DNA of 20,751 nucleotides from a virus: the IMG/VR virus record IMGVR_UViG_3300042691_017797, positions 1 to 20,751 of that record. One strand, written 5' to 3'. Positions 17,844 through 20,193 of this stretch are shown piece after piece. The position numbers and the translations under genes are program-made. Each line of letters begins with the position of its first letter. Position 1 is the first letter of the stretch. The notes beneath the pieces are model-generated. The model had not been told where the DNA came from, made no database searches, and saw only the letters and a program-made list of their open reading frames with translations.

Positions 17844-17876
17844 TTTGCACATCGAAAGTTGATGCCCCCATCTTTG
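17844..17876 (+). promoter_or_regulatory. Early promoter TTTG-N21-CATCTTTG
   Basis: TTTG (17844-17847) and CATCTTTG (17869-17876) are separated by 21 bases, matching Bacteroidota -33/-7 spacing with one mismatch in the -7 box. It would transcribe the boxA leader, the tRNA-like elements and the small-gene operon. Confidence 0.6.
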
Positions 17877-17941
17877 CACAGTCGGACAACGGAACACCCC
17901 CTCGAATAGCAGGCCGGTCCTTAAGAGTCCTCTCCGATCGC

Positions 17942-17982
17942 GTTCTTTGACATCTTGGCCAACGTAGGGATAGCAGCCTACG
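17942..17982 (+). promoter_or_regulatory. boxA-like element plus hairpin (nut-like) in the early leader
   Basis: GTTCTTTGACATC (17942-17954) closely resembles the boxA of Bacteroidota and Bacillus ribosomal RNA leaders. After a short spacer CGTAGG and CCTACG make a 6-bp stem with loop GATAGCAG (17963-17982). The layout recalls lambda nut sites and copies that of the leftward leader at 15372-15406. Confidence 0.6.
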
Positions 17983-18029: not shown

Positions 18030-18098
18030 AGCGTGGAGGCACCAACCGGAACATCGGTGGTGGTGCGGTGAAGGGTTCGAATCCCTTCCCACGCTCCA
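18030..18098 (+). ncRNA. tRNA-like element 1, D-armless, followed by CCA
   Basis: A 7-bp acceptor-like stem pairs AGCGTGG (18030-18036) with CCACGCT (18089-18095), and CCA follows at 18096-18098. The T-arm has a stem GAAGGG/CCCTTC and a 7-base loop TTCGAAT (18076-18082). Between them a single hairpin pairs GCACCA with TGGTGC and ACCG with CGGT. There is no D-arm or standard 7-base anticodon loop, so it is not a decoding tRNA. It lies in the leader just before the first early gene. Confidence 0.65.
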
Positions 18099-18119
18099 AA
18101 CATCTAAACACCCAACAGC

Positions 18120-18365
18120 ATGGATACCAAGAACAAGAACCACGAAGTGGCAGCAATGCTCATCGCCTCGATGCTGAACGAGCGCAAGGATGGCTCGGCC
18201 AAGATGTCAAACAACGAGTACTACAGCACCATCGAACTGAGCAGCCCATCCATCTACGGATGGACGGTGCTCGAGGTCATGGCCAAGGCTGCAACATGGC
18301 AGGTACAGGTGGTCATAGACGTCAACGTCATGAACGGGCTTCAGATCAGGGTGCATAACAACTGA
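18120..18365 (+). CDS. Small early protein (81 aa), unknown function
   Basis: The protein starts MDTKNKNHEVAAMLIASMLN after an A/C-rich leader lacking a Shine-Dalgarno, as is usual for this host group. It has an N-terminal helical half and a strand-rich second half (WTVLEVMAKAATWQVQVVID, then VMNGLQIRVHNN). It is the first gene after tRNA-like element 1 and is separated from the next gene by element 2. No family is recognised; small early proteins like this often modify host functions. Confidence 0.7.
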   Translation: MDTKNKNHEVAAMLIASMLNERKDGSAKMSNNEYYSTIELSSPSIYGWTVLEVMAKAATWQVQVVIDVNVMNGLQIRVHNN

Positions 18366-18385
18366 TCAGCCCTGCGCGAGATATA

Positions 18386-18428
18386 AAGGTGGATGGTCGA
18401 AGGGGCGGTTCAACTCCGCCCCCACCTT
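18386..18428 (+). ncRNA. tRNA-like element 2, acceptor stem plus T-arm only
   Basis: AAGGTGG (18386-18392) pairs with CCACCTT (18422-18428). The T-arm has stem GGGCGG/CCGCCC and loop TTCAACT (18409-18415). Only ten bases lie between acceptor and T-arm, containing ATGGTCG, which recurs in element 3. It begins 20 bases after the stop at 18365 and ends 26 bases before the next ATG. Confidence 0.6.
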
Positions 18429-18454
18429 CAACAACTTCAAAACAACCCAACAAC

Positions 18455-18688
18455 ATGGTACGCACCAACAACATCAAGATCGTGGAGAACAGCTACGGTT
18501 TCCGCTCGCTGATCATCGACGGACGCTACAGGATCAGCACCGACCTTGCCAAGGTCGCCGCGGGGAAAGACAAGTGGTTGTCGGAAGTCCTGCTGGAGTG
18601 CAGGACGTGCAAGGGAAAGCACCCGGCCTACAGCATGGAGCTGCACGGGCAGTACTGCACGGAGTGCTGGGAGGCAGAAGAGGTCTGA
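18455..18688 (+). CDS. Small early protein with CxxC-CxxC zinc-binding motif (77 aa)
   Basis: From ATG 18455 (MVRTNNIKIVENSYGFRSLI) an N-terminal strand-rich region leads to a C-terminal four-Cys motif CRTCKG...QYCTECW (about residues 48-71), a CxxC-x17-18-CxxC zinc ribbon type. A frame open further upstream runs through tRNA-like element 2, so the ATG after it is the start. Zinc ribbons bind nucleic acids or proteins; no more specific function can be read. Confidence 0.7.
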   Translation: MVRTNNIKIVENSYGFRSLIIDGRYRISTDLAKVAAGKDKWLSEVLLECRTCKGKHPAYSMELHGQYCTECWEAEEV

Positions 18689-18695
18689 TCAGTAC

Positions 18696-18741
18696 AGGGG
18701 GCGATGGTCGCCCAGCGCAGGTTCGACTCCTGCGGCCCCCT
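18696..18741 (+). ncRNA. tRNA-like element 3, acceptor stem plus T-arm only
   Basis: AGGGGGC (18696-18702) pairs with GCCCCCT (18735-18741). The T-arm has stem CGCAGG/CCTGCG and loop TTCGACT (18722-18728). The 13-base linker can also form GGGCGA-TGG-TCGCCC (18699-18713), which competes with the acceptor stem. It starts seven bases after the stop of the zinc-motif gene. Confidence 0.7.
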
Positions 18742-18766
18742 CTAAACCATTAACACCAACACCAAC

Positions 18767-19033
18767 ATGGACGCATCAACACTTCGCACCGCCGTTACGG
18801 CAACCGGGTCGCACTTCTTCGACGCCGCCACCATGCGGTTCTTCGGGGACAGGATGGGGAACTACTACGTGGCCAAGCACCCCGTGACCATCACCAAGCG
18901 CGATGGAAGCACGGCAACGTGCTGGGAACTTCGTCGCCGCAAGCCCGTAAAGTTCGGCCAGCAGGGGTCTTGCTACTTCAACATCGAAACATACGAGCGC
19001 GTGATGCCAGCACCTTGGAACGAAACCATCTAA
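18767..19033 (+). CDS. DUF7447-like early protein (88 aa)
   Basis: The text TGSHFFDAATMRFFGDRMGN (about residues 13-32) followed by NYYVAKHPV, WELRRRKPVKFGQQGSCYFN and a short tail matches the pattern of the small phage family DUF7447, in which GSHFF, MRFFGD and RKPVKHG are typical. The biochemical role of the family is not established. The ATG at 18767 follows an A/C-rich leader downstream of tRNA-like element 3. It heads a set of five closely spaced small genes. Confidence 0.8.
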   Translation: MDASTLRTAVTATGSHFFDAATMRFFGDRMGNYYVAKHPVTITKRDGSTATCWELRRRKPVKFGQQGSCYFNIETYERVMPAPWNETI

Positions 19034-19046
19034 CCTCAGCAATACC

Positions 19047-19226
19047 ATGCTTACCAACACCACCGCCCGATACTGGGCAGACCCAGCAGAGGCAGAGGCA
19101 GTAGCCGCCGATGCCAACGCAAACGACAACTGGACCTATGTGGCGGTCCACGACCCCAAGGGTACCGGGTACTCCTACATCAACGTGTACGACGAGGAGG
19201 GCCACTATGTGGGCAAAATGTTCTAA
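19047..19226 (+). CDS. Small acidic early protein (59 aa)
   Basis: ATG 19047 to TAA 19226 encodes a protein beginning MLTNTTARYWADPAEAEAVA and ending INVYDEEGHYVGKMF. It has an Ala/Glu-rich helix and a strand-rich, Tyr-rich second half (YVAVHDPKGTGYSYINVYDE) that looks like a small beta fold. The gene follows its neighbour by 13 bases. No family is recognised. Confidence 0.7.
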   Translation: MLTNTTARYWADPAEAEAVAADANANDNWTYVAVHDPKGTGYSYINVYDEEGHYVGKMF

Positions 19227-19238
19227 CATCAACTGACC

Positions 19239-19481
19239 ATGACCATCCAAAACATTGACGGGGCCAAGGCCCTGCTGCTCACCGCCTATTGGCAATTTCA
19301 GCGCGAAGACCTGCTGGTGCGCCTGACCAGCGAGGAAATTCAAGCGTGGGCGCAAGATCGCATCGCATCGCGCCCTGACCTGTTCGTGGGCACCGCCCGC
19401 GAAATAGACCTCACCGCCCAGCACCTTGTGCTTTGGCTAATCAACAAGCCTTCCATCTTTGACAAGCTACACAACGCCTAA
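19239..19481 (+). CDS. Small helical early protein (80 aa)
   Basis: The protein starts MTIQNIDGAKALLLTAYWQF and is mostly helical and amphipathic, with a balanced charge and no membrane segment or Cys. It begins 12 bases after the previous stop, with an A/C-rich leader (CATCAACTGACC). Function unknown. Confidence 0.7.
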   Translation: MTIQNIDGAKALLLTAYWQFQREDLLVRLTSEEIQAWAQDRIASRPDLFVGTAREIDLTAQHLVLWLINKPSIFDKLHNA

Positions 19482-19494
19482 CACCAACACGACC

Positions 19495-19620
19495 ATGAAC
19501 ACCGAACGCATCACGAACGCCATTGAACGGGTCATCATCCCCGCAGGCTTCGCCATCGCCTCAGCCTTTGTGGTGTGGGGCTTCCTGCTGATCATCATCA
19601 ACGCAACCAAAACCCTCTAA
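19495..19620 (+). CDS. Single-pass membrane protein (41 aa)
   Basis: ATG 19495 to TAA 19620 encodes MNTERITNAIERVIIPAGFA, then IASAFVVWGFLLIIINATKTL. An amphipathic N-terminal helix precedes a strongly hydrophobic segment (residues about 14-35). It could be a host-membrane effector. It is spaced like its neighbours in the early operon (13 bases after the previous stop). Confidence 0.65.
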   Translation: MNTERITNAIERVIIPAGFAIASAFVVWGFLLIIINATKTL

Positions 19621-19631
19621 AAAATACGAAC

Positions 19632-19841
19632 ATGGAAGAGAAAAGCTTTGGCCAGCGCCTGCTGGATAAGTACAACGCCGAGCCGCGCATCAGCGCCACA
19701 ATCGCCAAGGTTCACGCCTCATCAGCCACCATGGACAATGGCGATACCGTCAGCCAGCGGTTCTGCCGCTACTCTCTTTGGGAGGCCGGGCAGATTGTGA
19801 ACTATCCGAAGCGGTATGCAGCGGTGAAGGGCACGAACTAA
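19632..19841 (+). CDS. Small basic early protein (69 aa)
   Basis: The ATG at 19632 (MEEKSFGQRLLDKYNAEPRI) is chosen because it follows the previous stop by 11 bases. An upstream ATG in the same frame would overlap the membrane-protein gene. The protein is mixed alpha/beta, basic, with Tyr-rich C-terminal text (YSLWEAGQIVNYPKRYAAVK). Function unknown. The gene is followed after six bases by tRNA-like element 4. Confidence 0.65.
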   Translation: MEEKSFGQRLLDKYNAEPRISATIAKVHASSATMDNGDTVSQRFCRYSLWEAGQIVNYPKRYAAVKGTN

Positions 19842-19847
19842 AGCAAC

Positions 19848-19893
19848 AGGGGGCATTGGATGCCCAGCACAGGCTCGACTCCTGTGGCCCCCT
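19848..19893 (+). ncRNA. tRNA-like element 4, acceptor stem plus T-arm only
   Basis: AGGGGGC (19848-19854) pairs with GCCCCCT (19887-19893). The T-arm has stem CACAGG/CCTGTG and loop CTCGACT (19874-19880). GGGCAT-TGG-ATGCCC (19851-19865) can form an alternative hairpin. Against element 3 the paired changes CG to CA with CG to TG in the T-stem, and GA/TC to AT/AT in the hairpin, are compensatory. Confidence 0.7.
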
Positions 19894-19923: not shown

Positions 19924-20115
19924 ATGCGACACCTCGAAGACATCTACAAGACCAACGACCTACACTACCACTTGTGGAGCGTGGACAACAACTGGGTGAT
20001 TCAAGCTTGGTCGCCCCTCGCCAAGATGTACCTGCCCTACCAGCGCAAGGAATACAGCGGACCTAACGCTGAGACCCTCGCCCGTGCAGCGTTCCAACGC
20101 ATCGTTGAAAGTTAA
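19924..20115 (+). CDS. Small aromatic-rich early protein (63 aa)
   Basis: The protein begins MRHLEDIYKTNDLHYHLWSV and is rich in Tyr, Trp and His, with strand-like text (WVIQAWSPLAKMYLPYQ) and a C-terminal helix (ETLARAAFQRIVES). The ATG lies 30 bases after tRNA-like element 4, behind an A/C-rich leader nearly identical to that after element 1. Its stop codon is inside the hairpin at 20111-20130. Function unknown. Confidence 0.65.
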   Translation: MRHLEDIYKTNDLHYHLWSVDNNWVIQAWSPLAKMYLPYQRKEYSGPNAETLARAAFQRIVES

Positions 20116-20139: not shown

Positions 20140-20169
20140 TTGGCACTTAAAAGCAACACCGTACTTTTG
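20140..20169 (+). promoter_or_regulatory. Promoter TTG-N19-TACTTTTG for the 20194 gene
   Basis: TTG (20140-20142) and TACTTTTG (20162-20169) with a 19-base spacer match the Bacteroidota consensus. It lies 24 bases before the ATG at 20194. Confidence 0.7.
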
Positions 20170-20193
20170 CACTCAACAAACAACAACTGAAAC

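Follow-up and report, generated by a model that had tools for sequence, protein, structure and literature searches.

Why should the early genes of a tailed phage be separated by small RNAs that resemble transfer RNAs (tRNAs) without an anticodon arm? The question arises from the virus record IMGVR_UViG_3300042691_017797, analyzed here from position 1 to 20,751 (the window; 20,751 bases), which a portal-like protein and a collagen-like tail-fibre protein identify as a tailed phage. A sequence-only reading had placed four tRNA-like elements, here E1 to E4, between positions 18030 and 19893 and had treated them as a feature of one phage. All four are present there, with stems and loops as described; instead of being confined to one phage, they are, judged from sequence, members of a widespread family of anticodon-less tRNA mimics that lie between genes, occur also in named Streptomyces and Mycobacterium phages, and are unannotated in the records examined. 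They are probably minimal RNase P substrates that punctuate phage transcripts, with a fold shown by covariation and a cleavage that we infer. The base-by-base reading covered the window neighbourhood and a few relatives.

Fold and covariation of the four window elements

The four elements lie on the plus strand and share one build, consisting of a 7-base pair (bp) acceptor-like stem, a linker of 10 to 33 nucleotides (nt), and a T-arm whose stem has 6 bp and whose loop has 7 nt. E1 (18030..18095) combines the acceptor AGCGTGG/CCACGCT and the T-arm GAAGGG-TTCGAAT-CCCTTC with a single long linker hairpin (GCACCA..TGGTGC) at the place of the D and anticodon arms of a tRNA. E2 (18386..18428) has the acceptor AAGGTGG/CCACCTT, the linker ATGGTCGAAG, and the T-arm GGGCGG-TTCAACT-CCGCCC; E3 (18696..18741) and E4 (19848..19893) have the same acceptor, AGGGGGC/GCCCCCT, with linkers GATGGTCGCCCAG and ATTGGATGCCCAG and T-arms CGCAGG-TTCGACT-CCTGCG and CACAGG-CTCGACT-CCTGTG, respectively. 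The differing but paired acceptor stems described earlier are thus read directly, and the linkers of E2, E3, and E4, said to span 10 to 13 bases, measure 10, 13, and 13 nt. The T-stem of 6 bp corrects the earlier description and gives a coaxial stack of 13 bp; the outermost A:T pair may represent position -1:73, which would leave the tRNA value of 12. All four T-loops fit a canonical tRNA T-arm (7-nt loop of the TTCRANY type), and an encoded CCA is found only after E1 (18096-18098; 1 of 4).

Minimum free energy prediction contains the acceptor and the T-arm for each element, with fold-energy z values of -3.6, -2.3, -2.0, and -1.8 for E1 to E4 and with 0, 7, 11, and 12 of 200 shuffles, respectively, folding equally well. 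Our first descriptor gave a mean of 0.007 matches, and at most one, in 300 first-order Markov sequences of window length; together with the shuffled-DNA control given below, this excludes a chance origin of the window elements. Neither a D-stem nor an anticodon arm was found in E2 to E4, whose linkers are short, and ARAGORN, the check proposed earlier for setting ordinary tRNAs aside, finds no tRNA in the window. The claim that an anticodon arm is lacking therefore stands, with the qualification that E1 has one long hairpin in that region. Ordinary tRNAs were rejected on these grounds and because Rfam scores stayed below cut-off, with E3 giving a weak match to tRNA-Sec (22.6 of 47 bits; expectation value [E] 1.8).

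An alternative hairpin formed by the acceptor 5' half and the linker can be drawn at window positions 18699-18713 (GGGCGA-TGG-TCGCCC) and 19851-19865 (GGGCAT-TGG-ATGCCC). In E3/E4-type elements it is mutually exclusive with the acceptor stem, its loop-closing pairs covary, and double changes occur in 2 of 6 pairs. We rejected it as the general fold, as the three E2 elements fail to form it completely; in E3/E4-type elements it is possibly a folding intermediate only.

Support for the fold comes from close relatives. Searching with the terminase yielded 24 viral loci, and model R1 matched (E <= 0.1) the records of two of these relatives, G009 (L011/L027/L062) and G014 (L016/L028); a third element-bearing relative, L031, was found by pattern. 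The window and these three relatives contain 12 elements in all, of which nine are short and three belong to the E1 type. Among the nine short elements, in an alignment fitted to the structure of R1, which was itself built from four of them, standard pairs make up 99.1% of all cells in the 13-pair structure, and 9 of the 13 pairs have changed on both sides. Their covariation score was reached by none of 500 shuffles, and paired cells fall to 63.6% or less when partner columns are slid by 1 to 3 positions. The E1 acceptor is kept in all three E1-type elements. Stems that covary among relatives, one half of the test that the sequence-only reading had set for itself, are thus present.

A family in Streptomyces and Mycobacterium phages

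A search pattern that joined the linker of E2 to a portion of the T-arm, with the acceptor left unspecified, was run over viral contigs and found 91 viral stretches. Acceptor pairing among 73 distinct full-flank matches was complete (6 of 6 positions) in 67 and reached at least 5 positions in 68, and all five free positions of the T-stem were paired in 66. The corresponding acceptor null, obtained by swapping 3' sides between elements, was 23%, a high value because many elements have common acceptors. A descriptor demanding pairing, GG in the linker, a TTCRANY-type T-loop, and a stack of at least 11 bp then found 136 nonredundant short-linker elements in 79 collected loci, E1 lying outside this set, and a single match in a shuffled 1.5-Mb copy. 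As this descriptor demands pairing, the pairing rates of the 136 arise partly by construction, and the acceptor-free and GG-free tests matter most. In the latter, GG stood at linker positions 2 to 7 in 67 of 69 short-linker elements that neither search pattern matches and that were found without the GG filter; random 6-mers drawn from these loci have it in 30% of cases. Bigger variants with one long linker arm, as in E1, were seen at L154:861-920 and L157:5402-5461.

The linkers fall into two classes, type A (ATGGTCGYAG; 10 nt), of which E3 and E4, with 13 nt, seem to have an extended version, and type B (ACTGGCAGACA and variants; 11 nt). Both have GG at the place of G18G19 in the tRNA D-loop. 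From the 136 elements we took 58 references, of which 52 were aligned with MAFFT; no model was built from this alignment, because in it the acceptor columns of the classes were shifted against one another, and the 22 type B rows form a separate alignment. In the latter, 13 of 14 pairs change on both sides, including the outermost, although it is paired in only 2 of the 22 sequences. Two tertiary pairs, first spotted on overlapping sequences and then counted (n = 22), join linker position 9 to T-loop position 60 (AU 12, GC 5, CG 3, other 2) and linker position 2 to position 8 (CG 12, AU 4, GC 4, GU 1, other 1). In phage Papyrus, whose record played no part in finding these pairs, although related phages may have, the eleven-nt linkers (6 different) keep the 2-8 pair in 11 of 11 cases and the 9-T60 pair in 9 of 11, the two exceptions placing T opposite T. 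This covariation shows that the linker folds back on the T-loop, which gives the element its own tRNA-like elbow. Most acceptor pairs vary freely across the family.

The ends of the helix carry a further signature. Stacks of 11, 12, and 13 bp occur in 34, 70, and 32 of the 136 elements, and the second base after the helix is C in 33 of the 34 and 63 of the 70 elements with 11 and 12 bp, respectively (nearby C, 28%); in 13-bp elements, whose outer pair may be -1:73, it is the first base after the helix that is C (26 of 32). C thus stands at the expected place in 122 of 136 elements, and in 63 of 69 in the GG-unfiltered subset. A purine followed by C (R-C) is found after the helix in 95 of 136, and A precedes the helix (N-1) in 75 of 104 elements of 11 to 12 bp. 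The post-helix R-C is R73-C74 of a pre-tRNA, mostly minus the remaining CCA. The earlier claim that each element is followed by CCA or a degenerate CNA applies to E1 as regards CCA; in the wider family it is R-C that is conserved, and CCA follows the helix in only 4 of 136. CCA favours RNase P cleavage of model substrates.

Models R2 and R3 derive from members that the same search patterns had picked out, and their E values are rough. When 50 records were searched whole, 49 of which had been picked for holding a pattern match and the fiftieth of which was Caliburn, R2 matched in 49 and R3 in 37, often multiple times. BLAST with one type B element matched 150 named phage records at E <= 0.01 (Streptomyces 113, Mycobacterium 26, Gordonia 10, Arthrobacter 1), mostly unchecked individually; for Gordonia phage Rabbitrun, one of these, the descriptor finds nothing in L168. 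Window E3 gave no match when BLASTed against named phages, and phage phiC31 gave no descriptor match and a best R2 match at E 0.19. One 42-bp element is identical in Mycobacterium phage Konstantine (L136:6065-6106), Streptomyces phage Caliburn (NC_028892, 45082-45123), and other Streptomyces phages. No longer match was reported there, and the identity may reflect transfer or very strong constraint.

The family looks rare in cellular genomes. The pattern search of cellular contigs (genome_contigs) gave 26 matches, none with acceptor pairing by the descriptor. R3 matched 2 of 296 Actinomycetes genomes at E <= 1e-5, one match (L163) being also a descriptor match, within overlapping open reading frames (ORFs), and the other (L164) not, and R2 matched none of 296 Bacteroidota genomes; with about 20 candidates scored per genome and no positive control genome, these counts are lower bounds.

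In five annotated Streptomyces and Mycobacterium phages, 39 of 41 matches are clear of annotated coding sequences (CDS), and the records show no feature at those 39. The counts are 10/10 in Caliburn (whole genome, coding fraction 90%), 7/8 in the Konstantine stretch, 12/13 in the Papyrus stretch, 9/9 in the Endor1 stretch, and 1/1 in the Sheen stretch; an atypical Konstantine match with a 24-nt linker that overlaps a CDS (L162 13353-13409) was counted as not clear. The gap-located elements lie on the sense strand, and among 38 with a measured distance, 29 begin 6 to 15 nt after the upstream stop codon (Caliburn 5/10, Konstantine 5/7, Papyrus 11/12, Endor1 7/8, Sheen 1/1). The distance to the next start is 12 to 71 nt, and once 172, in Caliburn, Konstantine, Papyrus, and Endor1. 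One Endor1 element stands ahead of the first leftward gene, which parallels E1 of the window. In 28 of 136 cases, versus 3.6 expected from mononucleotide shuffles, the first 14 nt 3' of the element include the start of a hairpin with 6 bp or more; all seven Konstantine elements are followed by one, with stems that differ between copies.

The early region of the window and its relatives

The early region runs rightward from about 17,870, the label "early" coming from its position and promoters; all features given here are on the plus strand. By sequence reading, its leader holds a -7 promoter-like element, ATCTTTGC (17870..17877), which we take to be of the Bacteroidota type, and a boxA-like GTTCTTTGACAT (17942..17953). 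The sequence CTTTGACATCTTGGCC at 17945-17960 is found also in L028 (3575-3590), and this GTTCTTTGACAT/CTTTGACATCTTGGCC segment (17942-17960) is presumably a boxA like that of Bacteroidota ribosomal RNA leaders; host antitermination is possibly used. Judged only from these promoter-like and boxA-like sequences, the host is probably a member of the Bacteroidota.

E1 precedes the first early ORF (18120..18365; 81 amino acids), for which Pfam gave no family at E 0.1, and E2 precedes an ORF of 77 amino acids (18455..18688). E3 stands before five tightly packed ORFs (18767..19841; starts at 18767, 19047, 19239, 19498, and 19632) that have no element among them, and E4 before an ORF of 63 amino acids (19924..20115). 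The next promoter-like element, TACTTTTGC (20162..20170), closes the element-bearing unit. E2, E3, and E4 occupy the three gaps longer than 50 nt among accepted ORFs before 20162, and E1 lies in the leader; the proposal that elements fill the leader and every early gap of more than 50 bases holds for these ORFs up to the 20162 site, and this placement supports the idea of an early operon punctuated by tRNA-like elements.

Several further observations concern the relatives. The pair formed by E4 and the 63-amino-acid gene is found again in L031, behind another upstream gene than in the window, and at L031:2690-2740 the end of an ORF is formed by an element 3' half (GCGCCCCCTCTAAAC), as though fused by recombination. 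A leader of several hundred nt that resembles a structured noncoding RNA precedes E1 at L062:2700-3251 and L028:3520-3991, the window leader being much shorter; a leader hairpin reading CAGCGCA-ACTAATG-TGCGCTG in one of these relatives reads CGGTACA-GCTAATG-TGTACCG in the other, and TGAATATAGCGA is common to both. The long leader region gave no Rfam match at E <= 1 when L011 and L016 were scanned. Intergenic dyads of the form GTTAGTGA-N4-TCACTAAC occur in L062 (3318, 3793, 4267, 5683) and L028 (4058, 4537, 5243), with four each in L064 and L065 and the variant GTTAGTGGATAATCAACTAAC in relatives. They adjoin elements or replace them ahead of the same gene, and may be hairpins or operators; in L062 and L028 the hairpin-forming dyad lies 3' of E1 and E3 and 5' of E2. 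Such dyads were not found in the window with the patterns used. Finally, five ordinary tRNA genes lie on the minus strand of L019 (1629-2019) and L020 (2402-2792), about 7 to 8 kb upstream of the terminase gene and near the position corresponding to the early region of the window.

Possible processing of phage transcripts

Several known systems resemble the phage elements in part. The mascRNA lies at a transcript boundary, the MALAT1 end, and is cut by RNase P and RNase Z. The mascRNA/menRNA family (RF01684) shares the tRNA-like fold and was the best Rfam match for E3 of L016 (E 0.0098), but it is the 3' end of a eukaryotic long noncoding RNA, whereas the phage elements are multicopy, intergenic, and without an anticodon arm; membership was rejected, as the score was 31.6 bits against a gathering threshold of 42.5 and the family was not listed for the window or 16 further loci. 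In mitochondria, where tRNAs punctuate polycistronic RNA, and in t-elements, cut sites are marked by an intergenic fold that is a tRNA or resembles one; the phage elements, which would work in the manner of this punctuation and of mascRNA, differ as minimal folds without an anticodon arm, in bacterial phages with double-stranded DNA, and with a putative cleavage. The tRNA-like domain of transfer-messenger RNA (tmRNA) has an acceptor, a T-arm, and a D-loop without a stem, and resembles the elements in combining acceptor and T-arm without a D-stem. No tmRNA model recognizes the window, however, and tmRNA was rejected, since ARAGORN and Rfam find none there and no Rfam tmRNA match appeared in the sources scanned. 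AT1-type RNase P model substrates, which end in RCCA, have the same architecture of acceptor, T-stem, and T-loop, but they are synthetic; in the phage elements usually only R-C of this end remains, and a docked linker is present in addition. More generally, Rfam scans of the window, L011, L016, and the 16 further loci gave nothing at cut-off on elements; among the matches listed for the 16 loci, all seven are in L076, a true tRNA array that was set apart. M3 RNA, C4 antisense RNA, and T4 gene 32 mRNA are named as phage RNase P substrates (PMC11143913), yet these are single RNAs and not a recurrent intergenic family. Mycobacteriophage stoperators (PMC3029335) are likewise repeated intergenic elements in one orientation, but they are 13-bp asymmetric DNA sites for a repressor, without an RNA fold. 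We found no account of elements like these in the open-licence full-text literature of PubMed Central, to which the search was confined.

What RNase P reads is consistent with what the family conserves. As described in PMC4919913, the enzyme binds the stack of T-loop and acceptor, locates the cleavage site by its distance from the elbow, and forms pairs with the tRNA 3' terminus; the D-loop is apparently dispensable, and a T-loop or something similar is required. E. coli RNase P RNA efficiently cleaves hairpins reduced to acceptor, T-stem, and T-loop, and does so at the canonical site (PMC11143913). The earlier comparison with minimal RNase P substrates is borne out as regards fit, with a stack near 12 bp, the T-loop and elbow, and R-C all present. 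The family keeps the features read by RNase P and drops the anticodon arm, and we therefore think that host RNase P cuts 5' of the acceptor. The host enzyme would take the element for a pre-tRNA and cut at the acceptor 5' side, most often 6 to 15 nt past the upstream stop codon, so that the upstream coding unit would end in a short tail and the genes that follow would be carried by an RNA opening with a paired 5' end. Should RNase Z or another 3' tRNA nuclease cut as well, this RNA would instead have a short free leader, which for a minority of elements would begin with its own hairpin.

A number of observations weigh against this proposal. The stack varies between 11 and 13 bp, and the CCA is mostly missing. 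The linkers of types A and B differ, so the two need not share a common ancestor. By crude ORF calling, a same-strand stop lies near 45 of 125 elements in the loci versus 9.4% at random, and mean ORF overlap is 0.76 versus 0.93, a weak enrichment from a caller applied to high-GC contigs. Among the 24 records of terminase relatives, many of them fragments, 22 are without an R1 match. L021, which is nearer to the window (87% terminase identity) than L011 or L016, has a promoter region as in the window and no E1, its leader passing from CATCTTGGCC directly into the first gene, and the leader of L004 is like that of L021 as far as the contig extends. These two leaders and the 22 records mean that the elements are dispensable in this phage group, where they are gained and lost.

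The elements might instead act uncut, as compact tRNA-like folds that halt exonucleases or RNA polymerase, protecting the 3' ends of upstream genes or causing termination without a uridine run. The position of 29 of the 38 measured elements 6 to 15 nt after a stop codon would suit this, and the early region of the actinophage phiC31 reportedly has U-less terminators; phiC31 itself, however, lacks a descriptor match, and a barrier or terminator needs no 7-nt T-loop, GG linker, T-loop docking, or post-helix R-C, so we regard this explanation as unlikely. That TTTT occurs within 12 nt after the element in only 4 of 136 counts against it too, and an intrinsic terminator of hairpin and U-run was rejected on the same count. 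If the released mimics were themselves the product, serving as decoys or ligands for RNase P, EF-Tu, the CCA-adding enzyme, or another tRNA-binding factor, then the retained elbow features and the up to 13 copies in one stretch (Papyrus) would be understandable. We give this idea little credence, as acceptor pairs are mostly free to vary, encoded CCA is rare (although later addition is possible), and a decoy has no need of a fixed position after stop codons; the earlier suggestions of aminoacylation, EF-Tu binding, and a CCA end are likewise weakened because CCA is missing in most members.

The 42-bp island identical in Konstantine and in Streptomyces phages such as Caliburn, like the displaced pair of E4-like element and gene in L031, would be expected if the elements were DNA-level cassette boundaries, short homologies for gene exchange among phages with a secondary RNA fold; the compensatory stem changes within and between genomes are not demanded by homology, and we consider such a role improbable. 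That the elements are decayed tRNA genes, as the five ordinary tRNAs of the related L019 and L020 might suggest, is scarcely credible given their strong covariation, recurrent linkers, and many copies in several records.

Returning to processing by RNase P, we are on balance inclined to the broader proposition that tailed phages, among them phages of Streptomyces and Mycobacterium and a probable Bacteroidota phage group, feed their transcripts into tRNA maturation by the host at the boundaries of gene blocks, by means of a dedicated family of 40- to 50-nt anticodon-less mimics with a covarying linker-T-loop fold, as a bacterial-virus form of tRNA punctuation that is unannotated in well-studied phages. 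If so, a large family of structured RNAs would have been overlooked in phages annotated for years, and whether bacterial viruses routinely process their mRNAs with RNase P would become directly testable. The elements would also be natural minimal RNase P substrates of diverse sequence, informative on what the enzyme reads, and would offer a rule for locating transcript boundaries in phage genomes.

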